NCBI GenBank assembly: GCA_026874595.1
Contig: CM049316.1
Coordinates: 69,303,676 to 69,367,675, forward strand
Origin: Sipunculus nudus
Lineage: Eukaryota > Annelida > Sipuncula > Golfingiida > Sipunculidae
Length of the DNA stretch: 64,000 bases
Direction of reading: 5' to 3'
The position numbers and the translations under genes are program-made. The notes beneath the pieces were generated by a model that saw nothing but the letters and a program-made list of their open reading frames with translations, had not been told where the DNA came from and searched no databases. This document shows, piece by piece, positions 2,733 to 62,220 of this stretch; position 1 is the stretch's first letter, and each line of letters begins with the position of its first letter.

Positions 2733-5093
2733 TTACTGCTGACTGTCATTTCTTGTTGGGACCTGACGAAGCGCAGACCGAAGCCTGGCCCAAAAGGCAG
2801 GTACTTTGTCAATCATGGCTTCCCCGGGCCAGATGAGATACGTATGTCGTCTCAAAATGGCCACCAGGGTGCGCGGCATGTCAGTGGTGGACACTTCCTC
2901 AAGTATAATAACAATAAGTTTATCCACACCCCTTTCCATCATGTGGATGCGAGCCATATGCATTTCAAATTTACACCAACCACTGCGTATAAAATTCTGT
3001 GAAAGGACAATAATAGTTTTACGGCTGGTCGATATAGCGCGAAGAATGTTTTCCTCAATGGGCCATCCTATTTCAAAATCCCTGTCGTGTATACATAGAC
3101 GAAAGGGAGGGTCGCTTTCTTCAATTTGGGGCACTAGTTGATCAGAGACCCACTGAAGATCCCGCTCATTGTGGGCTACAAACGCATCAAACTGAAAAGC
3201 TCCGGTTTCCTCAAACAGTTCATTATAAAGCTCTCGACGAATCTTAAGTCGAAGGCAAAAGTATCTGATATCCCACTTATGGCGGTATGCTATCCCATAT
3301 ATCGTCAGACATACGAAAACCGTCCCAAGGAGTCCAGCGACAGCATACAACCACTGTAGACTGATACAGCGTTTTTCAAGCCGAGGTAAAATTTCTTCAT
3401 GCAAGCGGGAGAAAGTCATACCATGTCCAAACAAATCACATTCCAGCTCTTCAATGTTTGCCAAATTACGCCGAAACTGATACGCCCATCGGAGGAAATG
3501 AATCGAGCGACATGTACATTCTAAAGGGTTACCTCTCAGATCCAATACGAACTGCCGCCCTGCTCGCTCATTTGCTTTTATTATTTCACTCAATGACATC
3601 ACAAAGTTTGCTTTCAAATATAAAATCCGGTTGTTTGAAACATCCAAAAAGGTCAGACGACCCAGCGTGGCAATACCAGCAGGAAGGTGAAGCAAATGAT
3701 TGTTTTTCAGAATTAATGTTTGTAACTTCTTGTTCGTGCCATTGAAAGCCATCGGCGATAGTTTAAAGATGGAGTTATCTGTGAGATCCAAATATTCCAA
3801 ATTGTTAAGTAATGGCAACGGGCCACCATTTTGTTCAAGCATTTTACCAAACCTATTGTTTGTCAGATTTAATGAAACAATTGCTGACCTTAAGTGTTTT
3901 CCAAACGCGAATCTTGAAATGTTTTTACAGCTGTTGTCTGTAAAATCAATATGGAAGTCACTTGCTGGATGACACAGTTCTAGCGTACCCATATAATCCG
4001 TCACTTGGTTGTTGGAGAAGTAAAAGTATGCATCTCTGACGTTCTCGCTGTTCTGGACATAAAGGCGGAAACTGGAGGGCACTTTCCCCATGACACAAAC
4101 CTCCCGTGCATATAAACGGGTTAGATTGGTTGGCCAGGCGAATACTGGAACAGGGCGGGAATTATTCTGAAAATTTTCCCGAACAGAAGTCACGTGGCCT
4201 GAGACTAAATCATGTTCTGCACTCACTTGGCAATCCTGATTAACCAACTTCTGCTCCGGCATTTTACGCCACGTATAATGGACATCGTTGGTAGATTTAA
4301 TGCTAACAGCCTTGGACCGAGGGCCTGTTTTGAGCTGATAACTGATATTTAAAATTTTAAGGCGCTCCAGACCAAGAATGGCCTCAAAAAGATGCAGACG
4401 GTTACCACCAAGATATAATTCTTCCAGGTTTGGCGTATATTTATAAATAAAATCGTTAATATATCCGATTCCATTGTTACTGAGATCCAATTTTGTCAGG
4501 GATTCTGTCTTTATAGATTTTAAAAGTGCAATCGTAATATCATTTTTTGAGTACACAGGACTTGTTGTTATACCCATGAAATTCAAGAATTTCAATTTCG
4601 ACTTCGGCAGGTATCGGATTGTGGATAGGATATAGTGATATTTAGACTCTCCAAGTCTTGTATTGTATGACAAATCAAGCACTTCTAAGTTTGAGAGTTT
4701 GTTGAAAATATTTGATTTATTGGGGAATTTTCCATAATCTCCAAGTCTGTTGTAACTTAAATCAAGATAACTTAAGCTCGACAGGCCTTCAAATGCGCCT
4801 GGTTCAATATATTTGATTTGGGATCGATCGAGTTGAAGTGCATCTAAGTGGACACACTTTAGAAACACGTTTGCTTCAATTTGGCTTATTTGGTTCCCGG
4901 AGAGCACAAATTTCGTCACTTCCTTATTACATATATCCGGGACAGACTTCAGTCCTTTGTAGCTACAGTCGACAGTAATCGAACCCTCTGATCGTGTACA
5001 GTTACATGGAGAGCAACTGGAAGTCGGAGAAACAGTAGCAGCAATTGCAGAAATCAAAATAAGAACAACTGAAACAGACAGAATGCCTTTCAT
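2733..5093 (-). CDS. Toll-like receptor, intronless coding region, 786 aa
   Basis: Type I membrane receptor of innate immunity. From the chosen ATG (5093) the protein shows a signal peptide (about 1-25), an LRRNT with clustered cysteines (27, 30, 32), leucine-rich repeats over about 45-520, one LRRCT with a CxC pattern (526-566), a transmembrane helix (about 579-603) and a cytoplasmic TIR domain (about 633-771). TIR box 1 reads FDAFVAH, box 2 RDFEIGWPI and box 3 FW. One C-terminal cysteine cluster makes it the vertebrate-like single-cluster type. The frame stays open upstream to 5195 but only through a TTG. The ATG at 5093 places the signal peptide at the terminus, so it is preferred. Oddity: the BB-loop proline found in most TLRs is isoleucine. 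Several NxS/T sites lie in the ectodomain. Ligand unknown. The downstream partner would normally be a TIR adaptor such as MyD88 (family knowledge). Confidence 0.95.
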   Translation of the reverse strand: MKGILSVSVVLILISAIAATVSPTSSCSPCNCTRSEGSITVDCSYKGLKSVPDICNKEVTKFVLSGNQISQIEANVFLKCVHLDALQLDRSQIKYIEPGAFEGLSSLSYLDLSYNRLGDYGKFPNKSNIFNKLSNLEVLDLSYNTRLGESKYHYILSTIRYLPKSKLKFLNFMGITTSPVYSKNDITIALLKSIKTESLTKLDLSNNGIGYINDFIYKYTPNLEELYLGGNRLHLFEAILGLERLKILNISYQLKTGPRSKAVSIKSTNDVHYTWRKMPEQKLVNQDCQVSAEHDLVSGHVTSVRENFQNNSRPVPVFAWPTNLTRLYAREVCVMGKVPSSFRLYVQNSENVRDAYFYFSNNQVTDYMGTLELCHPASDFHIDFTDNSCKNISRFAFGKHLRSAIVSLNLTNNRFGKMLEQNGGPLPLLNNLEYLDLTDNSIFKLSPMAFNGTNKKLQTLILKNNHLLHLPAGIATLGRLTFLDVSNNRILYLKANFVMSLSEIIKANERAGRQFVLDLRGNPLECTCRSIHFLRWAYQFRRNLANIEELECDLFGHGMTFSRLHEEILPRLEKRCISLQWLYAVAGLLGTVFVCLTIYGIAYRHKWDIRYFCLRLKIRRELYNELFEETGAFQFDAFVAHNERDLQWVSDQLVPQIEESDPPFRLCIHDRDFEIGWPIEENILRAISTSRKTIIVLSQNFIRSGWCKFEMHMARIHMMERGVDKLIVIILEEVSTTDMPRTLVAILRRHTYLIWPGEAMIDKVPAFWARLRSALRQVPTRNDSQQ

Positions 5094-5247
5094 CTTTGAT
5101 CTTACTACTTTCAGACGCACGTCTCTTACGAGGGGTGAAGATTCTGAGTGGTGTATGCTGGATATTACAGGGTTGACTGAAAAATGATAGACCAAAATTT
5201 CTTAGGTCTCTTTAACGATTATCTTCTTTACATATTTGTTTCTTTTT

Positions 5248-8901: not shown

Positions 8902-9558
8902 CTAAGTTAAGACTGTCAGGTCAGTGAGACGCTGGAACAGTTCAGGCTGATGTGACTTCAACACGTTGAAGAACTTTCCTTTGACTTTCATTTCTGATGT
9001 TACGAGGATGTCCAGGACGTAGCGGATTTTCTCTTCTCTGTTCGTAAGTTCCTTCACGCGATGTACATGGTAACTGTTCAAAACGCCAGCTTCTTTGAGT
9101 GGGTTTAGTAAATCTTGGATATAAAGCTCCTGTATAAAAAATTCCTTATGTGTGTCGAGACTCCTCATGAGCCCGGGTTTACACTGACGCGGCACGGGCT
9201 TGGGAGCTGGAGATGTAAATAAAATGCTTATTACGTCCCGATAACGTGTTTTTATGTCACGATTACATGATTAGATGTAAACAACCACCCATTTTAACAA
9301 AGTTATTTTTTAAACATATGCCGATTGGGCTTACGACAAAGAATCTGTAAATAACGGCATTTTGAGTGAATGAAAATGCCGTTAATAATTCAAACGCGAT
9401 AAAAGAACATTTATATGCTCCATAACATCCGACCTGATATCAGACATGTTATCAAAAAGTATTCATTTGTTTGATTCGCGAAAATTTAATATGGTAATCA
9501 CATTTTTTGGTTTTCTTTTGGAACACACATATAAATATATATAAATATATATTTATAT

Positions 9559-9599
<41 letters not shown>

Positions 9600-10687
9600 G
9601 ATTTACATATATGATTTACCTGTAACCGGTGGGCGCTGCGGTGAGGGTAGACTTGCTGACTCAGCATTATTCAGCTTGCACAAGCAAACAAAGATCGTCT
9701 TCCCCTGACCGGTGGTGAGCACTCTGTGACCGAAAAACGTCCCGTCGGTGCCTTCAGGATGGGGACTGGTCTGAATAATAATAAGATTCATAATTTTCAT
9801 AATTTTGATAATAAACAACATGCATTATATTCTTAATATAATTAAATGGGGAAACCCTCTCAGTCAAAAATTTATAAATAGTTAAATATAGTGTATAATA
9901 AAAATAGCGCAAGCTAGGTTGGCACCCATATTGTCAATACTAGGTAGAGTTAGGGCATTCACTCTTATAATTTTATCTAATGACATAAGAAAATGTATAT
10001 CTATATAATAGTAATATCAACAATTGAAAATTAATTTCTTCACAAATTTATATAAATGTGGTCCAGCAGATATCCATAATCTGTGGTTAAAAATCGTGTC
10101 TAATAGTGCAAAAACGATGCTGTCCGACAAATTTACAGCCGAAGACCGATTGTATTAAAATTATATAAAAGTATATATGAATGAAGAACTGTGTGTACAT
10201 TTTCCAGTGTTTCCTAAGGTCTTGAAGTCACGATTAGATAAAAAAAATGTCAGATCGTAGAAAAATTGAGAAGTTAAATTAGCATGTGTTACCAATTCCA
10301 CCCCCGCCATTGGTTGACAGACATCGCTGATTTTCCCTAGCCATCGGAACTTCCCAAACATGCCATCCCCGAGGTCGACTTTTACTTCTCCTCCAAGCTT
10401 TAAATTCGTCCAAAGGTGGGTTGGCCTGAGTTCACGCAGCTGAATATTTCCCTCTTTTGTTGAGATTGAGCCAACTTTGGTGGGCCCCTTGCTTTCCCCA
10501 GCAGGTATCAATGTCGTCTGCTGTTTATTGGGTGTCGTCTGCTGTTCACTGGGTGTCGTCTGCTGCTCTCTGGGTAACGTCTGGTCTGACGTAACTTTTG
10601 GGTTCTCCTTTTTGTTGATTTTATTTCGTCGAGCTTCTGCTGATATTGTATAAATTAAAATATTAAAACCCAAACAGTTAATGAATT

Positions 10688-10746
<59 letters not shown>

Positions 10747-13700
10747 ATGGAGAGAGAGAGAGAGAGAGAGGAAGAGAGAGAGAGAGTGAGAGAGTAGCTA
10801 AATTCTTTTCAATTGCCTTTCGATTCGATTCTCAATTTAATTATTGCAAAACTCTACAGTCCGTCAGATGAGTTTATGTTATAAACGTTTTCTTCCTAAG
10901 GTTGCTAATATGAACATTGTACAATAACATTTATATATTCCAAATAAAAATAACAACTCCTCATCCTATTCTGAATCTGATGTCGGGAACGAGGAAAGCC
11001 TCTTAAAACATTATATTTGCAATAAATTTTGTTCATCTCCCCATAGGTTAGAAAAATAAATTTAAAATGTAACAATATAATTTTTCAATTATTCCATTAG
11101 CGAGTATTATTAGTTACTACCTTCCGTTCAATACATCGATTATTCATTGTATTATTGCAACCTTACTTACGAGTAAAGCATTTAGATATTTCTGTATTAA
11201 GAGAAGAATGTATGTCTCTGTTAGGATACATAATTGTATTTTCTCTGAATTATTAGTTGATTGCATACCCTTCTTATTGCTGGTCGTGGGACCCGGGTCT
11301 ATCCTACACACAGCAACGGGAACAAATATAGCCCTTTTTGGCGGACATATGAACAATCGTTTGCCCTCGTATGTTCCATCCGACCCGGCTTTGATATCCT
11401 CGTTCTTTAAGTGAACAACCAAACCAATATTAATAATTAACAATGTAGTGGTGTAATGTATAGGGACACAAATTTATGGAAATACTCAAGACCTATAGAA
11501 ACTACAGTTGAACAGAAAATGAAATTCACGTCATTGACCGCAAAAATCTAGGCGCACAGGTGCAACGTAGTTGATACAATTTAGGTAAAAAAAACAGTGG
11601 TTACTATTTTAGTACTAAAGCATTTAGCATTTTCTTGCCTGCGGTAATTTCATCTCTTATCCCTTTAAGACTAATATTTTTTTCTGATATTGACCATTTT
11701 CCTATTCCCTTATAAGTGAAATTAAATATGATAGCGTCATGGTTATTTTTTATTTAACTTCAAGTCATCAAATCTACAAGCAGGAATTACCTCTTCAACT
11801 GTTATATATTATTCCTTGGTGCCATATTTCAAAACGGCAATATTTATAGCACGTAGACGTTCGACTCTCCTATAATTATATTATGGTCCACATGTATGAA
11901 TCAACCTAAATCAAGTCACGGAGATCAAATTCATAAAATTTGACATCATTCGATTAAACAACAAATTAAGTAACTATCTAGGGATATTTTCGAATATATC
12001 ATTCACACTTCACTGGTATAGCGATCGAATACCAATGTGATAAAAATATCGTTTTCACAAATGTTCTACCGGTGTGCGTTCTACTTTTATTAGTTATGGT
12101 TTCACAATGACCTTGTTGAACTGTTGTAATCAAACTATTTGCTCACCAATTCGACGCCTACTATTGGTTGCTTAGTTTCCTCTGTTCTACCGGTCCACCG
12201 GACAGTACCATGAATGTCGTTACCCAAACTGACCACAACCCGCCGACCTGGAATGAAGTCGGCCAAATCGACAGCAGGTGGCACTTCTGTTTGTTTGTTA
12301 CCTGTCTGAGCAAATTTAATGTTTACCTAAAGCTTGATGATGTTATGGGTATTAAATTTCATTATTATGATGCAAATTGGATTTTCAGTAAACCCCTGAA
12401 ATTACAACCACCGAAGTGTTCGCTTTCCAGGTGGTTGACTAAGAGGAGTCTTAAATGAAGATAAACCATCGGGACCCGGAACCAGAAGTCGTTATTTTAA
12501 GGTGGTTGCTTATCACAGATGATCGTTAAGCGAGGTTTTACTGTAGTATAATTATATTACGGATGGTTTAAAGTATTGTATTTTTCCATTTATCTGACAT
12601 ATAGTTAATAATTTGTATTAATGTTACTGTTAACACAGGGAATGAAAGACTTTCTCTTGCATGTTACCATGGAAATTGTGTTACATGAAATAATAACAAT
12701 CACATTAGGTATAGTCATAATCGTAATCATAAAGAATCAGCAACGATTTTCTGATCTGTTACATGTCCACATTGAAAAATAATTTAGTTTCAAGCTAATA
12801 CACAAGAAAATTGGACTCTTTAGAAATATTCTCAATACACTTGATTTCATGCCCTATAAGTGACTAGTAAAAATGACTGATAAGCAAGTTTGAAAGCAAA
12901 TGAGAATTAAACCTATCAGGTATTCTTTTCGTAAAAGTGTCGCTGACTTTGTTTGACTGCGTTCAATTTGACCTTTGATTTTTATGTTACACCATGTTTC
13001 TGATTCAATTACTTTTAATTAGGGCCTGTATGCGTAAGCATTTATTTATTGACAATTGAAAGGGAAAAAAATTACCCTTGGTTTGTTTGCAGCAAATACT
13101 GTTCAGGCATTTTCACTTTACCTATGTAAGCTCCGGCACCATCAGCTGGACCCGCTTTAGAAATACCAACCCCTTCCTCTTTGGATAGCATTTCTGCATT
13201 TAACCACTTTTCTTGCAAATGTTCATGTAAGTCCTTGTTGCCAGTCACTTTCAGGGCATCCATGAACGCAGTAAATTCTCTCTTTCCCCTGGTGGACATG
13301 AGTTGAACTAAATGTTCAGCTCCGTGTTTCGCAACATCCATGCCAGCCTCTTGCGACAATACTTGATTTTGCAGTAGGCAATGCAAAACTTTACGTAAGT
13401 TTTTCAGATCTCGGACGATTCTTCTAGAAGATTCAACAATTATCTGTCCGTACATCATGTGATTAATAAAGGATGTCATTGATGGTTCTGCTGAAAAATA
13501 TGAGTATATTTTTAATTATCTAAAGACCGAATAACTTCGAACAAATATGATGACTGCCTCATTTTAATGTTTTCTAAATAAATAGCGTTAATATAGTCCT
13601 GTGATCGCGTGAGATTTAAGTATACTTTTCATTTCTGTTCTTACCAAGAGTTATTAAATAGTAATAATATGAATTACATAATAATAATTAAAATTAAATA

Positions 13701-15138
13701 ATGCTAGTAATAAGAAAAAAAAGAGGAAGAAGGAGATGGAGATGGATATTGCTTTCATTGGTTTCTGGAAAATTATAAACAATATTCAAGTTGCACATGA
13801 TACGTAAAAAGAAACACCATCTGTTTACTTTGGCTGCAGTTCGGTTAAACTATATACGGGTGTTACAAATGGTATGTATCAACAGTAGGACTGCAGGAAA
13901 TGTCTAGTCGTCATCATGGTATAACATTGATATCATTTAAATGCTCTCACCTATTTTTTCTTGTTCCCCCTTATCTTGTGGTAGTTCTTTCCCTATTCGA
14001 TCTCGTGTTCGTCTTGTCGTTTTCTTCCCACCTATAGCTCGGGCACATTCGGCCTCTATCGCCTTATCTTTAAGCAAGTTATACAATTCATCATTATCTG
14101 TTTCTTTCAAAGCTTGCAAGAGTCCGTAATATGTTCTTCTGCCTCCAGGGACCAGAATATTTTGACATTTTTCGAATTCCGATGTCATATAATGTGCCGT
14201 GAGATTTTCATCCAGGATCTTGTATCGGACAAGGTTAAAAATGACGTCATCCTTTTCTCTTATCTTTTGTATAATCACAGGACTGCACTCAAGCCAAAGT
14301 CGGTTGTACAAATTGTCTGAAACGAAATACGAGTGAGAAATACTTTTAATTGATTTTAAATGTTATATATTTCTTTTAAACGTTCCGAATTCTTACCTGT
14401 AACTTAACTTTTTGGTAAAAACACTTTAGATTAAGGTAGTTCTAGCAAGAGAAATATGAATATCTATTATTTGAATATATGATTAATCAAATAGCAATTC
14501 ATAAGATAACCATTATATAAGACTAGAATGGAATAAATAAATAGAAAAAGATAACTATTAATAAAAACAAAAAAGGAAACATTCTGCATGCAAATAAAAT
14601 ACTTTGTCTATAAAATAAAAAATGATTAACTTTTTATAAAAAACGGTAACCAATGTCATATTGTTGGTTCAAATGGACGCTTCTGTTCAACATATATTAA
14701 AAGAAATTATAATTTTATACGTTTTCATTTAAAAATTCTACACGAAATGTGAAACGTGTCGTCAAGTGATATTTCATGCATGCTGATAATACAAACAAAT
14801 AAATAACAATTTCATTAAATAACTTTACCTTTGATTGGTCGGTCTTGGCCCAGTTCTGGTTGAATAATGGCATAGACATCCGGTTCCAGTCGGTGTAATA
14901 CAGTGAGAAACTTCTCAAATCGCGAGTCGTCCAATTTATTAATGATCTTTTGTAATATCTTAGTTTGATTCTCCTCAGATTGGCATAACGTAATGCCCGT
15001 AGAGTCGGCCTGCGATATCACCTCTGCTTCTGAGAGCTGCTTGAGCAGGATCTTTATATCTACATATCGCAAGAATTCCCCCGCCTCGTCTTCAATTTTT
15101 CTTCTGACGTCACCAAATCTGTCACCCTTTCTCTCCAT
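8902..15138 (-). CDS. CARD/CAP-Gly scaffold protein A, 8 exons, about 707 aa
   Basis: Gene model built from splice sites. Exons: 15138-14829, 14316-13951, 13490-13122, 12286-12147, 11404-11269, 10639-10293, 9770-9620, 9206-8902. All junctions are GT-AG and all phases agree, giving 2124 bases from ATG to TAG. Domains: CARD-like folds at about 10-95, 105-200 and 230-315; CAP-Gly domains split over exons 4+5 and 6+7; a final CARD in exon 8 (about 615-700). CAP-Gly marks are a GxVRW or GKFRW strand, AGVEL or VGVEL, then SDGT or TDGT and GKR or GHR. The GKNDG loop of tubulin-binding CAP-Gly domains is altered, as in CYLD. No ubiquitin protease domain is present. Exon 6 has a repetitive EQQTTP linker. 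A likely cytosolic adaptor joining CARD assemblies to a CYLD-type ligand; the role is inferred. Paralogue at 51851-62220. Confidence 0.85.
9541..9598. repeat. (TA)n microsatellite in intron 7 of gene A
   Basis: TA-rich run immediately 3' of the donor at 9620/9619, inside the last intron of the CARD/CAP-Gly gene. Confidence 0.9.
10688..10796. repeat. Compound (TA)n-(GA)n microsatellite in intron 5 of gene A
   Basis: A TA run of about 50 bases, a short GTGTATG bridge and a GA-rich run with minor interruptions. It lies in the intron between exons 11404-11269 and 10639-10293. Confidence 0.9.
12386..12543 (-). mobile_element. Pogo/Tigger-like MITE in intron 3 of gene A
   Basis: A 158-base element. 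Read on the minus strand its end is CAGTAAAACCTCGCTTAACG, and the opposite end starts CAGTAAACCCCTG, so the ends form imperfect inverted repeats. Internal AACCACC, AATAACGAC and GGGTCCCGAT blocks match the element end at 6929-7012. A TA flank follows the TACTG end. It is too short to encode a transposase. Confidence 0.6.
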
Positions 15139-25458: not shown

Positions 25459-25515
25459 GTGTTCGACAGCTCTGTTTCGTAAGGGCCCCTACGGGCCCTC
25501 ACTCGTCAGGAACAC
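25459..25515 (-). ncRNA. Type I hammerhead ribozyme of a Penelope-like element
   Basis: All elements of the fold are present on the minus strand. Stem I is GTGTTC (25515-25510) paired with GAACAC (25464-25459), 6 of 6. The core CTGACGA occupies 25509-25503. Stem II is GTGAGGGCCC (25502-25493) with GGGCCCTTAC (25488-25479), 10 pairs including one G-U, around a GTAG loop. The conserved GAAA occupies 25478-25475. Stem III is ACAG (25475-25472) with CTGT (25469-25466) and an AG loop. C17 is at 25465, and self-cleavage is predicted after it. Hammerheads are known from Penelope-like element terminal repeats, and this one sits at the end of such an ORF. Its U4-G5-A6 is also the stop codon of that ORF. 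Confidence 0.9.
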
Positions 25516-26366
25516 TGAGTGGTCTTGTCGGGGCTCCTAATACTTGATCCAGGGGATTTGTAGTTGGTCAGCAGGTGCTTTGACCTGTGCCTGCATGTCG
25601 CTGCGATTTCATTTCTTTTGTTTAGAGTGCCTAATAGGGGGCGATGAATAATAAAGTACTTTTCTTCCAAACAAAGGTTACAAGATTTAGATGATATGGA
25701 GTACGCTCTGGCTTTGCTGATTATCTTCCATTGTATGGTATATTTCACATTTAAGTCCTTTATTTTCCAAATGTATTCGCTTAGTGTGGTGGAATTTCGT
25801 CTCTTCTCGTTTTTGAAGCTAGATTTGTGGGCCGTGTAGCGTGTTTTGAATGTGTTTTCTGTTAGGCCGATGTAGGTTTCTTGTCTCAGATTGTCTAGAC
25901 GTGTTACGGTGGCTTGGTACACAATGTTTTTTATTAAACAGTTACCCTCTAATGGGCAAGATTGTTTGTCTCTACAGTTACATTTCTTCGGTTCAGTTTG
26001 TTGCGCACTGAATTTGTTCAGTATCTCCCTGTTGTGTCCTGCTATTATTTGGCCCATGTTTGGCATGCAGCTATAACTTAGCTTCACTGTATTTTTATTC
26101 AATAGTTTGTGGAGCTTGTGCTGGGGTGGGAAGCATTTGTCAAGAAGATTAAAAATTTTTTTTCCGATGTTTGTGGTCACGTTATCGCTAAATGGTGGAT
26201 TGAACCAGGTTATATTTCTCTTTCTATTGTTAATAATATTTATATATAGATGAATCTGATATTTTTTTTCACTTTCAGTATGTGTTAAATTTCTTTTAAG
26301 TAGAACTATACCCAGCTTTAAAGACGTCTTACTACCTGTGTATGTTTCATCTGTTTTAGGCAAAAT
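25506..26366 (-). CDS. Penelope-like element, 3' part: RT tail and GIY-YIG endonuclease (5' truncated)
   Basis: About 285 codons are open, with no ATG at the 5' end, so this is a truncated pol. Residues 40-115 match the region following the reverse transcriptase in such elements (WFNPPFS, IGKKIF, SYSCMPN). A cysteine cluster, CNC with further Cys at 136 and 142, precedes the GIY-YIG-type nuclease: YQATV, then TYIGLTEN, Arg 175 and the glutamates of CLEEKYFI. The nuclease would nick target DNA for reverse transcription. The domain itself is uninterrupted, so the insertion may be young. The polymerase core is missing. The stop codon overlaps the hammerhead core. The 5' break lies about 40 bases from the start codon of the divergently oriented BTB gene. 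Confidence 0.85.
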   Translation of the reverse strand: MLPKTDETYTGSKTSLKLGIVLLKRNLTHTESEKKYQIHLYINIINNRKRNITWFNPPFSDNVTTNIGKKIFNLLDKCFPPQHKLHKLLNKNTVKLSYSCMPNMGQIIAGHNREILNKFSAQQTEPKKCNCRDKQSCPLEGNCLIKNIVYQATVTRLDNLRQETYIGLTENTFKTRYTAHKSSFKNEKRRNSTTLSEYIWKIKDLNVKYTIQWKIISKARAYSISSKSCNLCLEEKYFIIHRPLLGTLNKRNEIAATCRHRSKHLLTNYKSPGSSIRSPDKTTQCS

Positions 26367-26405
26367 GCAGATACAGAAAGTATAAGAGATAACATATGTC
26401 GCCGC

Positions 26406-28430
26406 ATGAAATTCAAGTGGTCAATGGATGAAGCCCTTAATCAACAAAGATCAACCAACCAGTTCTGTGATGTTAGATTTCGTGTAAGGGATGGAACTGT
26501 CTCCGCCCATCGATGTGTCCTGGTTGCCGCTTCAGATTACTTTGACAGACTACTTTGCAGCGACTTCAAGGAAAAAGAGGAAGCTGAAATTGATTTCTCT
26601 ACCATATTCTCCTCCATTGTGCCTCTTGTTTGGGTCATTGACTATATCTATGGAGTAGATCTATATTTAAATGAAGATTATATGTTGGAGATTTTGAATG
26701 CTTCGAGACTTTTTCTCCTCGACCACCTAACAACGGAAATTACCTCGCATCTGTGTAATGAATTAACTCTAAGGAACTGCGTGTGGACTTGGGCCGTAGC
26801 AGACTTGTATGATCTTGCATTTTTATCCAAAATATGCCAGCATATTGTTACCTGTCGCTTTCAAGATGTATTGCAACACACGGACGAAGCTCTGTCAATA
26901 CCTATTGCCAACCTTGTTCGTTTTGTCGATGCAGGTATGACGCAGCACTGCTACAGTGAGGAAATAAAAAGATTCCTGGATAGTTGGACAAACAGAGGAG
27001 GTACACCGGAACACGAAAAAACTAAGAGTTACATTTCTTCTTGCTTAGTAAATGGAACAAATCAATTTTCAACGTTCGTGAAATTGGCCGAAAATGCTAC
27101 TATTCCTAAAAGTAGGAAACGAAACTTTGGAGAGACTGGTCAAAAAGAACTCAATGATAAAAGGATAAAAACGTCTTCAGGTTCTTTTTGTAAAGAACCG
27201 CAACATGTTGTGAGCCCTGCTAACCAAATGATTCAAGATTTCGCCCTCCATCAAAACGCGGTTTCTTTTAATAGACCGCCTGAAGATGAACCGAACGTCA
27301 GTCTTTTTTCACCATCGATAAAATACTGGAAAAAATCTTGTTGTGCAGAAATGACCAAAGGCCCGTGCGAAGAGATTTTGATTTGTAATCGTAAACACGA
27401 CTCGATTATTTATCGCCCTCAATCAAATAAATGGCTGGCTGTATCACATACGTATGAGCCAAATTGGTCAGACAGAAAAATGTTACTTGGTGTCGGGAAA
27501 TCGTGTTTGTATTTGTTCAAAAATACTTTCGCTGGCGGTGTATTAGAAAATATAGTAGACGGTGAGCGGATACAGCTGCGTAGTCATAAGATGGTGGAAT
27601 GCCCCAAATTCTTCTCCCTTAAAGGAACACTGTTTTGCGTTGGAATTAGACGAAGAAGACCTGAAATGTTATCTTATGGATTGGACATTATGTGTATGTT
27701 CAGGATCGCGATACAAGTATATATAGTGAGTGAAAATTGCTGGGAAAACGTTTGCCAATCAGATGAAGAATGGCATAACATTTCGAGTAGGTTTTATTTA
27801 ATTCAACCCAAGTCTGACCAAGTCGATATACTGCTAGATACATCCGATGATGACAATATTGCTATCACTGTTTATACGTTCAACTTTAACCTTGGTTCAT
27901 TAAATAAAAAGAGTGCTGTGTATTCTGAAATCAAACAAAATCCTTACCCACACGAGCTCATGTCAGTCCAACAAACAGCTGAAGGATACGTTTGCAATTA
28001 TATATTTTTGGAAACCCCAATGTTGTTCACCCATTCAAAGAATGAGTTGACGCCTATTTTTTCAGAATCAAGGATACATTCAGTTGTTGGCAATGACGAG
28101 ACCCCCACCAGGCAATGCTTTATGAACACATATGAAGCAGAAATACTCTCTCTTTTTCCTGAGAGGGAAATGTGTTACGGTACTCTCTGTGCATACCGAA
28201 AAGAGGAGAACAAATACTACGAAATCATTCCATGTCCAGCAGACTGTGCTCAGTATAAAATTCGCGGCCAGTTTGTTGCATCTGAGTTTTTGAATCAGCT
28301 TGACACAATGAAAGTTGATTTTGATTTGGATGTTCCTTTTATTAACAGGTCAAGATGGCTTCGGCGAAAATTGCTCCATTACAGTGGTTCCTCCGAACTG
28401 TCCATATTGTTCAGGAAGCGGACAAAATGA
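26406..28430 (+). CDS. BTB-BACK protein, intronless, 674 aa
   Basis: Starts at an ATG with no in-frame upstream alternative that looks better. An N-terminal BTB/POZ domain (about 8-115) contains FCDVRFRVRDG, SAHRCVLVAASDYF and an AxxLxxLLD-like helix. A BACK-type helical region follows (about 117-195), then a basic linker (SRKRNF, DKRIK, about 235-256) that could be a nuclear localisation signal. Residues 305-640 look like a beta-rich kelch-like domain, but canonical GG and paired Tyr/Trp positions are weak. Family knowledge: BTB-BACK-kelch proteins are Cullin-3 substrate adaptors, so that role is inferred. The 3' end is probably shifted: another frame (about 28340-28539) carries a better-looking C-terminus. 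No introns. It may be a retrogene. Confidence 0.8.
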   Translation: MKFKWSMDEALNQQRSTNQFCDVRFRVRDGTVSAHRCVLVAASDYFDRLLCSDFKEKEEAEIDFSTIFSSIVPLVWVIDYIYGVDLYLNEDYMLEILNASRLFLLDHLTTEITSHLCNELTLRNCVWTWAVADLYDLAFLSKICQHIVTCRFQDVLQHTDEALSIPIANLVRFVDAGMTQHCYSEEIKRFLDSWTNRGGTPEHEKTKSYISSCLVNGTNQFSTFVKLAENATIPKSRKRNFGETGQKELNDKRIKTSSGSFCKEPQHVVSPANQMIQDFALHQNAVSFNRPPEDEPNVSLFSPSIKYWKKSCCAEMTKGPCEEILICNRKHDSIIYRPQSNKWLAVSHTYEPNWSDRKMLLGVGKSCLYLFKNTFAGGVLENIVDGERIQLRSHKMVECPKFFSLKGTLFCVGIRRRRPEMLSYGLDIMCMFRIAIQVYIVSENCWENVCQSDEEWHNISSRFYLIQPKSDQVDILLDTSDDDNIAITVYTFNFNLGSLNKKSAVYSEIKQNPYPHELMSVQQTAEGYVCNYIFLETPMLFTHSKNELTPIFSESRIHSVVGNDETPTRQCFMNTYEAEILSLFPEREMCYGTLCAYRKEENKYYEIIPCPADCAQYKIRGQFVASEFLNQLDTMKVDFDLDVPFINRSRWLRRKLLHYSGSSELSILFRKRTK

Positions 28431-39060: not shown

Positions 39061-39185
39061 GTTTTTGATAATTGATTACGCGTTGACTATCGATTCTGGA
39101 TTATTTTTTATCCGAGTGAGAACAAACACCATTGGGTGCGCGATGTCAGAAAACCCATATTCTGCAGAAAAAGGCAAACATCAAA

Positions 39186-48250: not shown

Positions 48251-48252
48251 CG

Positions 48253-51850: not shown

Positions 51851-54800
51851 TCAGCGCATGGCTGGCATACCAACCAACTGCTGGAACAGCTCCTTCTGGT
51901 GTGTTTTAAGCACATTAAAGAACTTCCCTTTTGATTTCATTTCCGCTTCCGCCATGATATCCATAATGTAACTGGCTTTATCACGCCTATCAGTGAGTTC
52001 TTCTACGTGCTCCACCTGGTGAGTGTCCAGGACACCAGCGGTCTGCAGCTGGTATAACAGATCCTGGACTCTCAGTTCCTGTATGAACAGACTACGATGT
52101 GTACTAAATGAGTCCATGAGGCTGGGTCTTCCCTGGCCACTGGATGGTGTGGTCGCCGGGGGTGCTGAAAAAATGGATATATACACAGTCTATGAAAACG
52201 AGGGGCCCGGGGTATTCTTTTACCGTTTTATCGTTTACCAAATATATAGCCAACATTGGTATATTGGTGTGCAAATATCCATTAGTTAGATATAGGTGTG
52301 CATGTGGGTGTGTGAGTGTATGGAAGGATACGGTTCAAATTCGACTTGAAGCATTTAAATGTAAATGCAAATGTTTTAGAAGAATCAAATGTGATTTAAT
52401 TTCACCAGTGATACAGTTTGTGTGGTTTGTGAGTGTGTGGGGTTTTTGAGTGTGCGTGGTTTGTGTGTGCGAGTGTGTGTATTTTGTGAGTGTGTGTGCA
52501 TGTTTTGCTTGTGTGTGCGTGCTGCTGTACCTTGTATCGCTGGGGTTCTTGAGACTTGGTGAGAGGAGATCGGCACCGCCTGAAGCTTACACAGACACAC
52601 CATGACCGACCTTCCTCGATCAGATGAGAAGAGTCTGTTACCGAGGAATGATCCATCAGTTCCGTCAGGATGAGGCTTCGCCTTAATAAATAAGGTTGTC
52701 TCATCAACATTATAAAAGAATTATGTAGTATAATATTTGTAATATTTATTACTATTACTATTACAGGTTAAAGTTTATTTTCTATTACTAATATTATTAC
52801 TTTGAAAACCTGTAATTTACAATTACTTATTACATATTAATATTACTCCATCCCTGATTTACATAATTGAATTTCCAATCTAAAGCATCACGGCTTATGC
52901 TTAAATACAAGTTTTTCTCATAACGATGAGATTGAGTTCGTTGCATGAATAGTGTATCTAATGGATACCAGAACAAAAATAGTTGTTGGTATTTTAGTTG
53001 TAGATATTTTAAGCGACCGAACTACATGTATAATTACACAAATAATGAGTAACATTTGTTCTCATTTCTCTGTTTTTACAATTTCATAGGCAAGAAGTTA
53101 CACTCTGAGATGTTTAGAACATATTTACGAGACCAGCCCCCTTAAAATAATCATCATATATCCGCGCCTGTTCAAGATCCTGCAGAGGGCGTTGATGACC
53201 GGTACTTACTAACTCCACTCCCGCCAGGGGGTGACTTATAACGCTACATCTGCCGTACCAGCGGAACTTCCCATGTATGTCTTCTCCGATATCCACTTTA
53301 ACTAAAGTTCCATAGTTCAACCCACTGCTGAGGTAGGCTGGATCCAATTCCGTTACCTCCACATCCGGGTACTTATGGCCACCTGCAGGGATCCCTCGTT
53401 GGATGTCTGGAGTTGTTCCCATCGTCCCAAGGTTTGTAGTAGTTTGAATTGTTTGTCTGAACGGCCCACCCCTATCGAGGCCTGGTGAAATAAATTAACA
53501 TATATATCAAAACTACAGATACGCGTTACCTATTACATATTTAATTAGTCATGTCATGTTTCATTTATTTTTTTTATTCGAGCTTTAGATCTTGTGTTTA
53601 TTGTAAGTACTGAGATAGCACTTAATTCAGAAAAGTCTTGGGTGTTGTATTTAAATGTAACTACAAAATAAGTTCAAACGGACTGTCATTGTTCTTTCAA
53701 GATTAATAGACCCCCCCCCCCCCTCCCCTTTCTCGGTGTAATCTGTTTACACAGAGAAACATATATATTTACTAACAAAGGAAATTTTTTAATGATGAAA
53801 AACAGCATATGCATGTAAAAGCAGTCCTGGTCCTTCGCAATTTATTTACCATGTAAAAGAAGACTACGTAAACAAAACCATTAGGATGTGATCTAAGCTG
53901 TGACATAAAGACGAATATTTTTATTCACATCAGATTTAAGGCTAAGTTCATACCAGGGTCGTCCATGGTAAGCTGTCCTTTTTTGCACATGGCCGCAGGA
54001 ACGAAGAGAGCTCTCTTTGGCGGGCAGATGAACAGTTTCTTTCCTTCAAACGTTCCGTCAGAAGCAGCCTGGTTTTCTTCGTCCTTATGAGAGAGATAAG
54101 ATTACCTTTACCAACGCACATGAGATGAAATTGAGCGTTGGTGCATGCTAGTGAAATATATATGAAAAGTTAGAGTCGGTCCCCAAGTCAAGCAAAATCA
54201 TCTTTGTTTACACTAGTATGATGAGACACATGCGTATGCCTTTTTAACGCTTATGATATCTGAAGCAGGAAATAAAGATACTGGTACAATGTAAATTCAT
54301 TAATAAGTGGCCATCCTCTCTCCCTCCCTCTCTCATATTTAGCAAATAATTTAATTAACTCACCAACTGAACGCCCACTATCGGCAGATCTGAATTTCCT
54401 CCTCTTCCTGTCCATCTGACCACTCCATGTAAATTTCCGCCGAAATTCACGGTGACAGGCGTGCCTGAGATGTAGTCAGCCAAAACATCTTCAGGTGGCG
54501 CTGCGGTCCGGGCTTTAGCTCTTTGAACACTTTGGACTCTTCCTTTAAATGTACGATACAATGCATAATTTTACGTGTGAATGTTGAATTTATAAGGTAT
54601 TAGAAAGGTAGTCCAACATTACATGTATACCTAAGTCAGGTTTGTGTTGGGAATTTACCAATGCGAACACATAAAAATGTTTGTCATGGTCCAAAAAACT
54701 CCGTGGCTACATCAATCAGAACAAAGGCCCCTAAAGGGCTGCTCAAAACGAGTGAATGGTTCTGGTCAAGGCCAAAATAAACACGTTTGACTTGATTCAT

Positions 54801-57143
54801 CATGTTTATCACGGTTACCTGAAGATTAGCATTTAATCGATTGTTCCTTTGGTGGATCCATAAGTCTCGATAAGATATAAATTTTCAGATTATTTGCTAC
54901 CAGCCAAAGTATCAAACAAACCAACGATGATTAACACATTTGTTAATCAGATACACCATGGGCTAAACACAGGTTTGTAAAAAATGTATTTTTAATCTAG
55001 CTTTAATTTCTATTGTCGTTCCTTATAACAATATTGATGTGTGTGTGCGTGTGTAAAAGCCAAACTGTTGGATGCATCGGAGTCATTCATGTCGGATTCT
55101 GTGTCATCGACTCATGCGGTAGAAGAATTTCAAGTACTGAGAAAATGGTAATATCTTTTCTTTTTTTTGTCGGTACCACTGTAGTTAAAATTCATTAAAC
55201 CTACCGCATAATATGACAAAGTTATGTTTATCAGGCCTAATATAAAAATACTGTGCGCCATAAGCCCGAGATGAAAAAAAAATGCATTTCCCTCAGATCA
55301 CGTGATTGAATTCTTTTTCAAATTTTAATGAAACCGGCTGTTGCCTATATCATCTCATTTCAGGAAATGCTACATATATTTGGAGATTTAATTAACAATC
55401 TACCTATGATTTCTTCCTCGGGATTTGGAGCAAAGCGTGGGTCCGGTCTACAGTTTTGAAGAGGGACGAACAGGGCTCTGTTCTGCTCACATTTGAACAC
55501 TCGTGTACCTTTATATGTGCCGTCGGTTGCCTCTGGAGTTGCAGTTTCCTGAAGACAAAACATATTTCCAATTAGTAAACAACTCGATATAAATGAGCGG
55601 GCATAAGAGAGAAGGCACGAGGGAACAAATTATAAGAATACAAAGAAAAGCGCAAAATGTCGCATGCACTCCAAAGGGCCTGGTAGTTATTGAGGTTAAT
55701 TTTTAAATTTACTTCTGCAGAATTCAATTGCAACTAAATGACGGAAGTATACGCTTCCTTTTATAAAACATAGAGTCTTCCAGACCCGGTAACTACCGTG
55801 CATACGCGTCATGGATGGGTAATCATCACTGCTGCTTTATAATAAAACCGAAGGCGATGAACCTTCCAAATTCGCACTCATTTGTGAGTGTTACACGATT
55901 GTAGGTAAGGTTAGCCCATTAGGCCTGCAGAACGCTCGCTCTTGGTTGGACTAGACCGTAAAAGTCTCACCGCTCCCAGGCTGGAACTCACTATCTCCCG
56001 GCTTCGAGTCCTGTATTCTATTCCTAGTCCACTGTTCAGAGCCAGTCCGTCCGTTATTGTGTTATGACATTTTAATCAATGTGGCAGTTCTTAGTAGGAG
56101 GTAAAACGTTTTGACTGCTGAATGAATCAACTTATTGTAGAGTTTATACATTGAAGGGTTACATTGTAAGTTTCATAGAATGACTGACAGTGTGGTGTCT
56201 AGGCATCATGATCAAAATATATATTCACTACATTTTTATGTCACTACATACCCGCAATATTCCTATTACGCAGGGATCGTCCTTTCTATAACTCTCGCGT
56301 TTCTCCAGTCAAATCAAAATCATTTAAGATGTGGCTGATTAAACTTTATTATTATGGGCCCCGATTCGGTGACCTCTTACCAGTTATCGTAAATTAACCT
56401 TCGATGAAAAATCAGAATAAATCTGTTGGCAAAGAGTTAATTATTAATTGAACAATAATAAAAGAATCACATTTTTTAAGGTGAACAAATGCTTAGCTCT
56501 TTTGAATTATCTTAATTTACTTAAAATGTATCTTTTGAAATCATAATTGCGATATCTCTGAACAAATAAGAATGATCTAAACCTCTGTCCCTTTGTAGGA
56601 ATATATCTTAGTTTTTATGTTTTCGATAGTTTCCAGATTATTTGATTATCTTAAACTAATATATGGGTATCGAAACCACGACAGGGCCATTGGTAATCGT
56701 GTTAGTAATTTAGCATCATTTGATACATATATATTTCGATTTATTGCGCCCACCGTATAAGTTAAAGAGGCTACTAAATCAACATGTCTTTCTCATCTGT
56801 CGTGTAACAAAGAAGAATTGAGATACAAAGACTTACCACTTCAACTCCTGCAATAGGTTTGGTTCTGTTGTCATAGTAACCGATCCACCTAATGACACCA
56901 TTTTCTTTTCGTCTGATGCTGACTTCGACCAAGGATCCAATATCAAGGTCCGTATCGAGGTCACGTGTTCGGAGTGCCTGCGGTTTTCGTATCGGTGCTT
57001 TCTTTTCAAGTTTCTTGGGCAGAACAAATGTTGGTGCATCCCGCGGAGCTGCTTCAGGTAACCATGGCAACAACTCTTCTTCCGGTTCTTGAAACATTCT
57101 ACGAACAGTCCTTTGTCCTAGTAAGTCTTTAACTACAAAATAT

Positions 57144-57231
<88 letters not shown>

Positions 57232-60200
57232 GTACATGAAAAATTACATAACAAACGTTTTACCATAACATCAAGTCAATTCAATAAAACACGACATATA
57301 TAATCATTACTCAAATATATATTTCGCAATTTTTGCACCTTAATTTATCAGAAATAACGCATGTAAATATGTCTATTTTATAAATTTTATGATAACATGA
57401 ATTAATCATAACGCACATTATTACATTTCAAATTTCTAATTTACCATTCCAGCCATAACATATAAGATATAATGTATATAATTACATGCTAACAAAGGTC
57501 TTTGTTCGTCAATCTGCCTCGCTTCAGGAACATTTCTTCCTTCCTTCTTCAGGTTCGCTTCGGCTTCCACCATTTTCTGTTTTAGCATTTCATGCAATCT
57601 TTCATTTCCTGTGTTGCTGAGAGTCTCAAGGAAGGCTGTAAATTCTGTCTTTCCCCTGGTGGACATGATCTTAACTAAGTGGAGTGCCCCAGAATGCATT
57701 ACGTCCTCCATTGCTTTCTGAGACAAAACTTTTGATTTCCGCAACTCCGCCGCTACTACCGCTAAATTCGTAAGCTCGTTGGTAATAAGGGTCGACGATT
57801 CCATGATTATTTGTCCATAAACCATGCTAGCTTGAAGGAACGCCCCAGCCTCTGGAAAAAAATATGATAAAGAAATAAGAAATCTGATTAGTAAATTTTC
57901 ATTTGGAAGAAATCGTTTCTGCTTACCTCATCAACTATTGTATAAACATTTTTTTTTATTTCAACACCTTTGGAAAGAACACCTGTGGCAAATTAAAGAA
58001 TTGAGTAATGAAACCTAATGTAAATATGACCGAATTTTCATGTATGAAAATAATTTTTCCGTTTTATTTCACGGTTAAAGATATAACATATCTGAGTTTT
58101 ATCACAATAATAAACTAGATGTGTCGGTACGACACGAATGCCCCCGCCTGGGGAAAATTAGAAACATTTGTTAAATTTGTAAATTTTTTTTTAAGTTCAG
58201 GATGTGTTGTATGGTCAAAAGTAGGTCAAGAAGGGCAAAATGCAAACTCAATCTGTAACGGGTCATTATCAAGGAACACACCAAAAAGCAGGCCAGTATA
58301 TTGCAGGCATTGTGAAAAAAGTCCATACATGTGCATTTTTAATATAAATTTCTGTCTTTCATGAAATGTTCTATGTTCAGGATCTGTCATATGGTCAAAA
58401 AAAGGTTAACTGGGACGAAACGCGAACTCGACCTGTAAGTGGTCATTATGCGCCCACAGACCAAACATTGGGCCAGTATCTGTAAGCATTGCATTGCGAA
58501 ACTAGAATATTATCAAAAGCTGGTAATCAGTTATAAATTTAAATTGGAGAGGTATGTACCATGTTTTATAACAATCCACCAAATGCTTCCTGAGAAATAT
58601 CCCCCTAAGTTTTTTTCTATACTAAGCTCTGTGACCTTGAAAAGTAGGTCAAGACCACCCATCTTTGAACCTGACCAAGATTTTGTAAATATGATGCAAA
58701 AGCACTGAAGTAATGAAGTTCCTTAGTTGAATACCTTTGGAGATATCCTGCACAAAGGCCAAAATTGAAAAATCCGATAAAATTTCATTAAAAAGATCAG
58801 AAATAGATCTACTCCGGAACTGTCCACTAATGAGGGCCATCTGGCAGGTTAAGCCTGCTGGTGGTACAAACAGTGCTTGCTCCAGCACTGCCTGGTCATA
58901 TTATATAGCATTTACCCTGTTTATAAAAGTCAGCTACTTTCAGTGTAATCGCCTCTTTTTACACTATTTTTTCAACAAAATGAGTGAAGGAATTCCTGGA
59001 TAATTTGTAAGCAGATGGATTGCCTCTGTTTGTTGGAAAAACGGCCTGTTATCATCACTGGTTATTAAAAAAAGGTCTATGACTTATGTTTTAATGGCTA
59101 GTGTACCTTAATCTACAAAAACTTGTCTAAACTATGTTGAAATTTCTTTAAAATTACAATTTATATTTTAAATCTGCCAATCAGGTTGATTTAAACTAGA
59201 TAAATCTTCAACCACAAGGCTAAGTCCTATACTCAACATGTACACACTTTATTTTGGTACCATTTGCCATACTGGTTAACAACACAGTAGTGTTGGGGAT
59301 GATGATCGATTATAAACGATGACTGGTCGACTGACGCAGACCATCCGATGATTGATCTTGCATTGCGATAATCAATTACGGAGTTTTTTAAAGGTTAGGC
59401 TTTATAGTGGCAGAAGGAATTATTTCATAAATTAATGTGAACAAATCTTTGTTTCTTGATAGATTCACACTGAAGTTTACTATATTTCAGTGTAATCGCG
59501 TCTTTTTACACTATTTTTTCAACAAAATGAGTGAAGGAATTCCTGGATAATTTGTCAGCAGATTGATTACCTCTGTTTGTTGGAAAAACGGCCTGTTATC
59601 ATCACTGGTTATTAAAAAAAGGTCTATGACTTATGTTTTAATGGCTAGTGTACCTTAATCTACAAAAACTTGTCTAAACTATGTTGAAATCTCTTTAAAA
59701 TTACAATTTATATTTTAAATCTGCCAATCAGGTTGATTTAAACTAGATATATCTTCAACCAATCAGGTTGATTTAAACTAGATATATCTTCAACCACAAG
59801 GTGAGGTCTTAAACCTCAGGGAGAGAGGAGCCAACACATTATAGGAACCACCCCATCAGAGACTGAGTTACATTCGAACATTTTACATATGAAATATATT
59901 TAATACATTTGAAATGTCTGTGTTGTGTCCATTTGGTGCCATCATATGACCCTAAGTAATCACTGGTGTAAAATCCTTATTAATTTTTTGGTCAATGCCA
60001 GTCAGTAGGAAATGGAACTTAGCTGTTTCATAAATGTTGAAATCTTCAGTAAATGTTAAATTTATTTTTCACTATGACTTAGTGCAACAATTTAATAATA
60101 TAACTTCATTATGTGGACCATTTTTTTCTATCTTAATTTATGCTTATGGCTTATTTTATTATCTTAATATGTTGATTGTTTGCAATACTTTTACAACAAG

Positions 60201-62220
60201 TGGTTTAGGATCCAGTGCTAAAAGCTCAACAGGTGTTAGGCAATTAATCTTTAAAGGTCATTATGTATGAAAGATATAACTGATACTTTCCAAAATTCTG
60301 TCATTAATCCAAATAATTCCCTAACTGATAGAAAAAAATAATCTAGTTAAAACATTAGGCATGATATATACACTGTCTCTGTCTTGTTTACATTCATGAG
60401 GTGATAAGCACATGTATCCAGTCTGATCTATTTCTCCTGTGATATTAATTTGGGATTTTATTAAATCTCACGGCTTCTATGTGTGGTTTCAGTAGTTGCC
60501 TATGTTATCCATCTGGTAGCATTTGATTCTAATTATCCATGGTCATTTACATATTAATCTAAGTGATAGGGACCCTAGATCATACACACAGCCATATGTC
60601 CAGCCTACTGCTGTGAGTCACAGCCTCTGGTCACCAGACACTGTTTGTACCACCTGCAGGCCTGTGGTCAGTTGGCAGGGAGTTCCGGATAAGGTCTATT
60701 GCAGGTGACGCCACCAAAATTGTGCAGCACGTACAGACCATCAGTCCCAATGATCATAGTAAGTTTTGTGAAAATCCACACAATGGTTCCTGAGCTATAA
60801 GCTTCTGATTTTTCTATAATCAGCTCTAAAATGTAGAAAAATGGGTCAAGGTCACCCATCTTCGAACTTGACCGAGATTTTATCGATATACATCTTCACT
60901 GATGAAATAAAATTCCAACGGTGAATCCTTTTAGAGATATCCCGCTCACAAGGTAAAAGTTAACAGACGCGGAACGGACGGACGGACGGACACCCGACAG
61001 ACAGATGGACGGATAGACGGACAGCTTGGGTGACGACAATAGCCCATCAGCCTATGAGCTGACCGCTAAAAACGGCTGTACATGTACATTTGTCATGAAA
61101 ATTTATATTTTTCATGAAATTTTCTATGTTTAAGAGCCATAAAACAATCAAAAGTAGGTCAACCGGGACAAAACGCGAACTCGATCTGTAACTGGTCATT
61201 ATCTGCATACACACCAATATCTGCAGGCATTGCGAAAAAAAGTCCGTACATATGTATTTGTCATGAAAATTACTTTTTTTCATGAAATTTTCTAAGTTTA
61301 GGAGCCGTAAAACGGTCAAAAGTAGGTCAACCGGGAGGAAACGCGAACTCGATCTGTAACTGGTCAATATCTGCATACACACCAAAAATCAGGCCAATAT
61401 CTGCAAGCATTGCGAAAAAAAGTCCGTACATGTGTATTTGTCATGAAAATTTCTATTTTTCATGAAATTTTCTAAGTTAAGGAGCCGTAAAACGGTCAAA
61501 AGTAAATCAACCGGAACGAAACGCGAACTCGATCTGTGACAGGTCATTATCTGCCCACACACCAAAAATCAGGCCAATATCTGCAGGCATTGCGAAAAAA
61601 AGTCCGTACAACTGTTTGATTTCGGAAGGACGGAAAGACGGAATGACGGAAATGGGTAAAACTATATGCCCCGGCCACTTTGTGGCGGGGGCATAAGAAA
61701 TAAATCAATAATGGAAAATGAAAGTTCTGTGTGGGGCGAGAATTGCTGCAGCACCCCTCAGGCTACTCATTTTTAGAAATACTTCAGATCCTTTCGGCAC
61801 ATTTAGTTTGATCCATTTTCTGTCGCAATAAAGGCATAGATAGCACCTGTAAAGCATCACCTTCTAATGCGGCTTGTTTCTCCTCATCTTCAGCCTCCGT
61901 ATCTTCAGCACCAACAGCCTCCGCACACTCCGCCTCTATGACCATGTCTCTCAGAAGATCAAACAACTCCTTGTTGTTGGTGTCTTGGAGAGATTTCAAG
62001 AATCCATAATATGTCTTTTTTCCACCTTCAAGCAGGATATTTAAACAGTACCGAATTCCCAGTCCCAAACACTGGTTCAGTTGATTGGGCTCTAAGATAC
62101 GGTACTGACCGAGTGTAAGTGTGACCTCCTGCTCATTTTTAACTTTGTCCAGCACTAAAGGGCTGCACTTGAGCCAGAGTTTGGTGTACATATCTTGTTG
62201 ATTGCGAGATGCTGGTCGGT
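51851..62220 (-). CDS. CARD/CAP-Gly scaffold protein B, 5' incomplete, about 736 aa visible
   Basis: Paralogue of gene A. Exons found: 62220-61861, 57851-57486, 57132-56837, 55548-55404, 54542-54364, 54083-53954, 53481-53210, 52681-52531, 52164-51851. Phases agree throughout and the stop is TGA. The donor at 57486 (CAT then GTAATT) is the weakest site. Domains in order: CARD-like ([15 protein letters not shown]), CARD-like ([21 protein letters not shown]), three CAP-Gly domains each split over two exons, then a CARD ([23 protein letters not shown]). The first CAP-Gly ([26 protein letters not shown]) is strikingly like the NEMO-binding third CAP-Gly of CYLD, recalled from memory. Compared with gene A it has one extra CAP-Gly. 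The phase 1 acceptor at 62220 demands further 5' exons, probably including a CARD beyond the window edge. Confidence 0.85.
53700..53724. repeat. C-rich homopolymer tract
   Basis: A run of about 12 C and nearby C-rich bases in an intron of gene B. Similar C runs occur at 8210 and 20658. Confidence 0.8.
57149..57226. repeat. (TA)n microsatellite in an intron of gene B
   Basis: TA-rich run of about 78 bases. It starts about 17 bases upstream (minus-strand sense) of the acceptor at 57133, close to the splice site. Confidence 0.95.
58941..59762. repeat. Direct duplication of about 275 bases, offset 547
   Basis: The segment 58941-59215 (CAGTGTAATCGCCTC to ATCTTCAACCA) recurs at 59488-59762 with very few changes. 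A further 35-base stretch (AATCAGGTTGATTTAAACTA and following) is duplicated in tandem at 59761-59795. Confidence 0.9.
61070..61615. repeat. Tandem repeat, three units of about 175-183 bases
   Basis: Each unit contains TTTGTCATGAAAATT, TTTTCATGAAATTTTCTA, AAAAGTA, AACGCGAACTCGATCTGT and GCATTGCGAAAAAAAGTCCG. A diverged unit lies at about 58340-58500. The 112-codon minus frame here is only the repeat translated. Confidence 0.9.

Follow-up and report, generated by a model that had tools for sequence, protein, structure and literature searches.

CYLD, a deubiquitinase that combines three CAP-Gly domains with a USP protease, and the CARD scaffolds are usually separate and opposing parts of NF-kB control. 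On the CYLD side, the available text of PMC8511506 describes CAP-Gly3 of the human protein as the domain that binds NEMO and ubiquitin, and CAP-Gly1 and CAP-Gly2 as facilitating microtubule binding; ubiquitin is held via Leu475, Val487 and Glu507 among other residues, and replacement of Leu475 by Pro or Arg abolishes ubiquitin binding, the Pro form retaining NEMO binding. Human CYLD CAP-Gly domains are, in the available part of PMC13376213, peptide binders, each with its own plus shared ligands. Here we analysed a stretch of 64,000 nucleotides (the window) from the annelid Sipunculus nudus (GenBank assembly GCA_026874595.1, contig CM049316.1, positions 69,303,676 to 69,367,675; hereafter contig C11), the minus strand of which carries, at 8902-15138, a predicted gene that unites CARDs with CYLD-type CAP-Gly domains (gene 1). 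A diverged second copy (gene 2) lies in the same window, and two relatives (genes 3 and 4) are found on this contig too, some 40 Mb from the window.

Analysis of the sequence confirmed that gene 1, as predicted, genuinely joins four CARD death-fold domains to two CYLD-type CAP-Gly domains. Eight minus-strand exons, all bounded by GT-AG sites and compatible in phase, were joined by script and gave a single predicted frame of 707 residues running from an ATG at 15138 to a TAG at 8902, which bears out the eight-exon, in-phase GT-AG model of about 707 residues proposed in the initial annotation. Upstream of this ATG the nearest in-frame stop is 27 codons away, and the intervening codons include no ATG. 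The junction of exons 3 and 4 can be drawn in more than one way: an acceptor at 12301, or one at 12305 with another donor, would yield 712 or 715 residues, alternatives that affect the linker only, and the homologous exon start in gene 2 is one codon off the exon 4 start first proposed for gene 1. A model with the donor at 13076 was ruled out, its frame being broken by 16 stops. The resulting domain order is CARD, CARD, CARD, CAP-Gly, CAP-Gly, CARD; the arrangement of four death-fold and two CAP-Gly domains claimed at the outset was recovered by Pfam and by fold models.

At the level of the full-length product, Pfam CARD was matched in three stretches (E 1.4e-19), and the scan returned only CAP_GLY, CARD and a sub-threshold CARD_2, with no DExD/H helicase domain. 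When pieces of the protein were scanned, the initial domain assignments were reproduced in part: exons 3 and 8 (CARD) and exons 4-5 (CAP_GLY) scored above cut-off, exons 6-7 (CAP_GLY) just under it (25.3 vs 26.5 bits) and exon 1 below it (CARD E 1.6e-3; 18.9 vs 23.9 bits), and exon 2 alone gave no Pfam match. Exon 2 is similar in sequence to exon 3 (blastp within a set of six sequences, E 2e-7; tblastn within the window, E 6e-7 and 2e-5), and its AlphaFold2 (AF2) model is a six-helix bundle; the AF2 model of exon 1 has a CARD-like fold, and the structure matches of both exons are mostly CARDs. The Foldseek E-values for exons 1 and 2 are weak, and for exon 2 pyrin domains follow close behind CARDs, the two not being separable there by structure comparison alone. 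The models nevertheless predict six-helix death-fold bundles in exons 1 and 2, in agreement with the earlier view of the helical exons as death folds. Among PDB chains, a five-row profile of the exon 2/3-type CARD was closest to CARD9 (E 9e-5) and CARD11 (E 5e-4) and also matched a CARD chain of MDA5 (E 1.4e-3), and a profile of the terminal CARD matched best a designed protein (E 5e-4), then CARD9 weakly (E 0.027). An MSTR-G stretch in gene 1 exon 3, kept in gene 2, looks like a paracaspase site, but this reading was dropped because the stretch around it is probably a common CARD motif.

Moreover, a tblastn search of the window with the gene 1 exons revealed a diverged second exon set on the minus strand, from 62220 to 51851, in which the CARD exons 2, 3 and 8 of gene 1 have counterparts (E 2.0e-27 for exon 3; the other two in Table 1). 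The best E-value from 20 dinucleotide shuffles of the window was 0.04, and we judge these sequence matches not to be chance. The spliced model of gene 2 runs from 62220 to a TGA at 51853-51851 and encodes 721 predicted residues, counted from a split first codon rather than from a start codon. The entry phases are 1,1,1,0,1,0,1,0,1, and the exons in common with gene 1 have equal phases. Gene 2 is ordered CARD, CARD, three CAP-Gly, CARD, with one CAP-Gly exon pair more than gene 1; upstream of it, no first-CARD exon was found by profiles in 180 kb around the window, reaching 66 kb past the window end. The two proteins share 46.0% identity over 557 aligned codons, and the differences at codon positions 1, 2 and 3 (0.42, 0.30 and 0.61) fit the pattern expected under protein-level constraint. 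Furthermore, a phase-0 intron interrupts all five CAP-Gly domains of genes 1 and 2 at an identical point, just past a GVEL-like stretch, and this shared position is a useful marker of common descent. A tandem array (180-base unit, 2-3 copies, 61088-61610) lies in an intron of gene 2.

The top PDB matches of gene 1 CAP-Gly 1 were chains of CYLD CAP-Gly3 (E 2.4e-8). CAP-Gly domains were further compared in an alignment and tree of nine family domains, two CLIP-type rows and the three CAP-Gly domains of human CYLD (in part as provisional sequences), from which CAP-Gly2 of gene 3 was omitted because only half of it is known. Eight of the nine family domains (all but gene 3 CAP-Gly1) grouped with human CYLD CAP-Gly3 (split support 0.885). 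These eight fell into set a (genes 2 and 3, loosely), set b (genes 1, 2 and 3, the gene 4 domain being closest to it) and set c (genes 1 and 2), with no set a domain in gene 1. At the positions of the human ubiquitin contacts Leu475, Val487 and Glu507, one CAP-Gly of gene 1 has Arg, Thr and Asn, its other CAP-Gly Glu, Lys and Thr; set a of genes 2 and 3 keeps Leu or Met (Met in gene 3), Val and Glu, and Leu stands at the first of these positions in gene 2 domains a and c. We take the Leu475 position in the alignment to be that set by the provisional human CYLD flank, which agrees with Val487 and Glu507 of PMC8511506. The arginine numbered 488 in that source falls at 489 in the provisional sequence and was not used.

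In the genome searched (1.43 Gb, 153 contigs), the terminal CARD was found at three places at E <=0.001, the third being gene 3, near C11:29.88 Mb. Gene 3 is ordered as a CYLD-like N-terminus, CAP-Gly1, half of CAP-Gly2 (the second half was looked for in gene 3 and not found), a CYLD CAP-Gly3-type domain, another CAP-Gly and the terminal CARD (E 1.8e-7), which is followed by a stop and occupies the place of the protease in CYLD. The best PDB match of its CAP-Gly1 was CYLD CAP-Gly1 (1whl, E 1.9e-13). Its N-terminal extension aligned locally to a provisional human CYLD sequence with a score of 58 (the highest among 1000 shuffles being 46) and with a blastp E of 3.4e-5 in a one-pair search; in a wider tblastn with the N-terminus of that human sequence as query, the second coding piece of gene 3 was matched at E 9e-14 and the first was not reported. 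Gene 4 lies directly upstream of gene 3, in tandem (C11:29906571-29903382, minus strand), and has the predicted order CARD, CARD, CAP-Gly: a CARD (E 8.7e-8) that has a Met of its own, an exon 3-type CARD (E 5.6e-3, below cut-off) and a CAP-Gly (E 9.2e-15) with a stop after it. The first CARDs of genes 1 and 4 aligned locally with a score of 55, reached by 0 of 1000 shuffles; they are counterparts by position more than by sequence, since blastp gave no match in one search and an out-of-register match (E 6.5) in another. Separately, a CAP-Gly match with one internal stop (E 5.4e-4) was observed at C11:68491120-68491227 on the plus strand; it lies 0.8 Mb from the window and may mark another relative or a remnant.

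The coding frame of gene 1 ends after the terminal CARD, with no USP protease in frame. In a search for a USP domain with a provisional human CYLD sequence as query, tblastn gave five matches (E 1.7-9.9), none credible, in 180 kb round the window and 130 kb round gene 3, and a motif search found no USP domain downstream of gene 3.

Judged from these features, gene 1 probably belongs, as a genuine gene, to a small family of scaffolds that lack a protease and combine CYLD-type CAP-Gly domains with CARDs. The architecture on which the initial annotation had based its scaffold interpretation stood, as did the likeness of the CAP-Gly domains to CYLD (by PDB matches and by the tree) and the absence of a protease; the second copy and the gene 3 relative had gone unmentioned. 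With gene 2, and with gene 3 carrying a CYLD-like N-terminus together with the same CARD, an odd single gene therefore becomes a CYLD-like family. In the simplest mechanism the product would be an adaptor with CARDs at both ends for assembly, CYLD-type docking in the middle and no enzyme: the CARDs would join or seed CARD assemblies, and the CAP-Gly modules would dock peptide ligands. As to origin, a CARD may have replaced the protease end of a CYLD copy; genes 1, 2 and 4 have additional CARDs ahead of the CAP-Gly domains, and gene 1 has no CAP-Gly that retains the ubiquitin residues. More tentatively, and with somewhat less than even confidence, we propose that the family is lineage-specific and arose as CYLD lost its protease and acquired CARDs, which would have turned the docking portion of a protein that restrains NF-kB into a building block of CARD assemblies, with gene 3 as the preserved intermediate and genes 1, 2 and 4 as derived forms.

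One observation weighs against the CYLD reading: CAP-Gly1 of gene 3 is nearer the CLIP-type rows than human CYLD CAP-Gly1 is (0.838), its identities being 42% to human CYLD CAP-Gly1 and 38% and 43% to the CLIP-type rows. In the initial annotation the CAP-Gly domains of gene 1 were putative binders of NEMO or TRAF-linked partners. Since gene 1 has Arg or Glu at the Leu475 position, these domains are predicted to be unlikely to bind ubiquitin in the manner of human CYLD CAP-Gly3.

Of the other explanations, the one that fares best is that the protein would antagonize CYLD as a decoy, taking the docking partners of CYLD at CARD assemblies and, being without a protease, prolonging signalling. Such a role would suit CYLD-type CAP-Gly domains in a coding frame without protease, as well as the residues like the human ubiquitin-binding ones that are retained in CAP-Gly a of genes 2 and 3; furthermore, oyster paracaspase cleaves human CYLD at R324 according to the available text of PMC5978004, and a CARD-paracaspase-CYLD link is therefore plausible in molluscs. 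However, gene 1 itself is without the ubiquitin-contact residues, and we regard a decoy function as rather unlikely. It is highly improbable that the CAP-Gly domains serve the classic role of their fold family by tethering CARD assemblies to microtubules or plus-end proteins: that fold is present and microtubule binding is facilitated by CAP-Gly1 and CAP-Gly2 of human CYLD (PMC8511506, available text), but where the two CLIP-type rows read GKNDG, gene 1 has GSDG or GTDG, similar to CYLD CAP-Gly3, and the domains group with this NEMO and ubiquitin binder. Least probable of all, by a hair, is that separate CARD and CAP-Gly genes were wrongly joined by exon picking, for although the gene 1 exon joins are drawn from genomic sequence alone, the exon 3-4 junction is ambiguous and no AATAAA or ATTAAA (variants only) lies within 600 bases past the gene 1 stop, gene 2 retains order, orientation, phases and CAP-Gly between CARD exons over 10 kb, and CARD, CARD, CAP-Gly recurs in gene 4 and CAP-Gly then CARD in gene 3.

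If gene 1 does belong to a protease-free scaffold family derived from CYLD, this fusion of modules would show a signalling network rewired by domain exchange, one likely intermediate still being present on the contig. Moreover, the locus offers two concrete hypotheses, scaffold versus CYLD competitor, and the CAP-Gly domains of the family form a natural series, some retaining the ubiquitin-contact residues and others having lost them. The exons of genes 1 and 2 are listed in Table 1.

Table 1. Predicted exons of genes 1 and 2, with positions in the window
Feature	Position	Strand	Remarks
Gene 1 exon 1: start codon (15138-15136) and CARD 1	14829..15138	-	
Gene 1 exon 2: CARD 2 and basic linker	13951..14316	-	
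Gene 1 exon 3: CARD 3	13122..13490	-	Pfam CARD E 1.5e-7; 46% identity to gene 2 over 119 codons
Gene 1 exon 4: CAP-Gly 1, first half	12147..12286	-	Starts at 12301 or 12305 also possible
Gene 1 exon 5: CAP-Gly 1, second half	11269..11404	-	Pfam CAP_GLY E 1e-15 (exons 4-5)
Gene 1 exon 6: Gln/Thr/Pro-rich linker and CAP-Gly 2, first half	10293..10639	-	21-base tandem repeat at 10512-10583
Gene 1 exon 7: CAP-Gly 2, second half	9620..9770	-	CAP_GLY E 1.4e-5 (exons 6-7); gene 2 counterpart likewise 151 bases
Gene 1 exon 8: CARD 4 and TAG stop	8902..9206	-	Pfam CARD E 5.2e-11
Gene 2 CARD exon, counterpart of gene 1 exon 2	61861..62220	-	tblastn E 1.5e-27; alone no Pfam match
Gene 2 CARD exon, counterpart of gene 1 exon 3	57486..57851	-	Pfam CARD E 4e-5, at cut-off; weak donor CAT/GTAATT (slash, exon end)
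Gene 2 CAP-Gly a, first half	56837..57126	-	Start at 57132 also possible; domain not found in gene 1
Gene 2 CAP-Gly a, second half	55404..55548	-	CAP_GLY E 2.3e-13 with first half
Gene 2 CAP-Gly b, first half, counterpart of gene 1 CAP-Gly 1	54364..54500	-	
Gene 2 CAP-Gly b, second half	53954..54083	-	CAP_GLY E 5.8e-13 with first half
Gene 2 CAP-Gly c, first half, counterpart of gene 1 CAP-Gly 2	53210..53481	-	
Gene 2 CAP-Gly c, second half	52531..52681	-	CAP_GLY E 2.3e-5 with first half, just under cut-off
Gene 2 terminal CARD and TGA stop	51851..52164	-	Pfam CARD E 2.9e-10; tblastn E 2.8e-33

Elsewhere in the window, a single frame for a Toll-like receptor (2736-5201, minus strand; LRR_8 E 1.3e-34, TIR E 2.5e-18) lies ~3.7 kb downstream of gene 1. 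On the plus strand, a frame of 702 residues at 26322-28427, kelch-like in length, has an N-terminal BTB domain (E 3.2e-19; 199 residues from the Met scanned); it is overlapped by a minus-strand frame of 304 residues (25509-26420) which has no Pfam match at 0.01 and by eye resembles the reverse transcriptase tail of a mobile element. A rhodopsin-type receptor frame is found at 39120-40319 on the plus strand (7tm_1 E 1.4e-15), with a shorter frame similar to it by eye at 48196-48495 (plus strand), and a tandem array with a 29-base unit in about 14 copies occupies 35583-35999. Rfam gave no match at gathering score in the window, and PADLOC no family up to E 1; in viral contigs queried with gene 1 CAP-Gly 1, none of nine pattern matches was confirmed.

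We know of no described protein with the order of three CARDs, two CAP-Gly domains and one CARD, and a search of open-licence literature (titles, abstract starts and term counts) found no CARD and CAP-Gly protein of this kind; the same architecture may exist, unnamed, in public proteomes. The accessible part of PMC2575513 makes no mention of CYLD. Among known systems three are closest: i) CYLD, to the CAP-Gly3 of which the gene 1 CAP-Gly domains are closest and of which the relative gene 3 has a similar N-terminus and CAP-Gly1, whereas gene 1 has no USP in frame, four added CARDs and two CAP-Gly domains only, both without the ubiquitin-contact leucine; ii) CARD9 and CARD11, the CARD-coiled coil scaffolds of the BCL10-MALT1 complex, which gene 1 resembles in the exon 2/3 CARD profile and in being an enzyme-free scaffold, but from which it differs by its CAP-Gly domains, its several CARDs and its CARDs at both ends; iii) MDA5 and RIG-I, with which gene 1 shares tandem N-terminal CARDs but not, by the Pfam scan of its protein, the helicase domain. 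Thus CARD and CAP-Gly domains are each known, and what is new is their union, together with a CYLD-like family that includes a likely intermediate.

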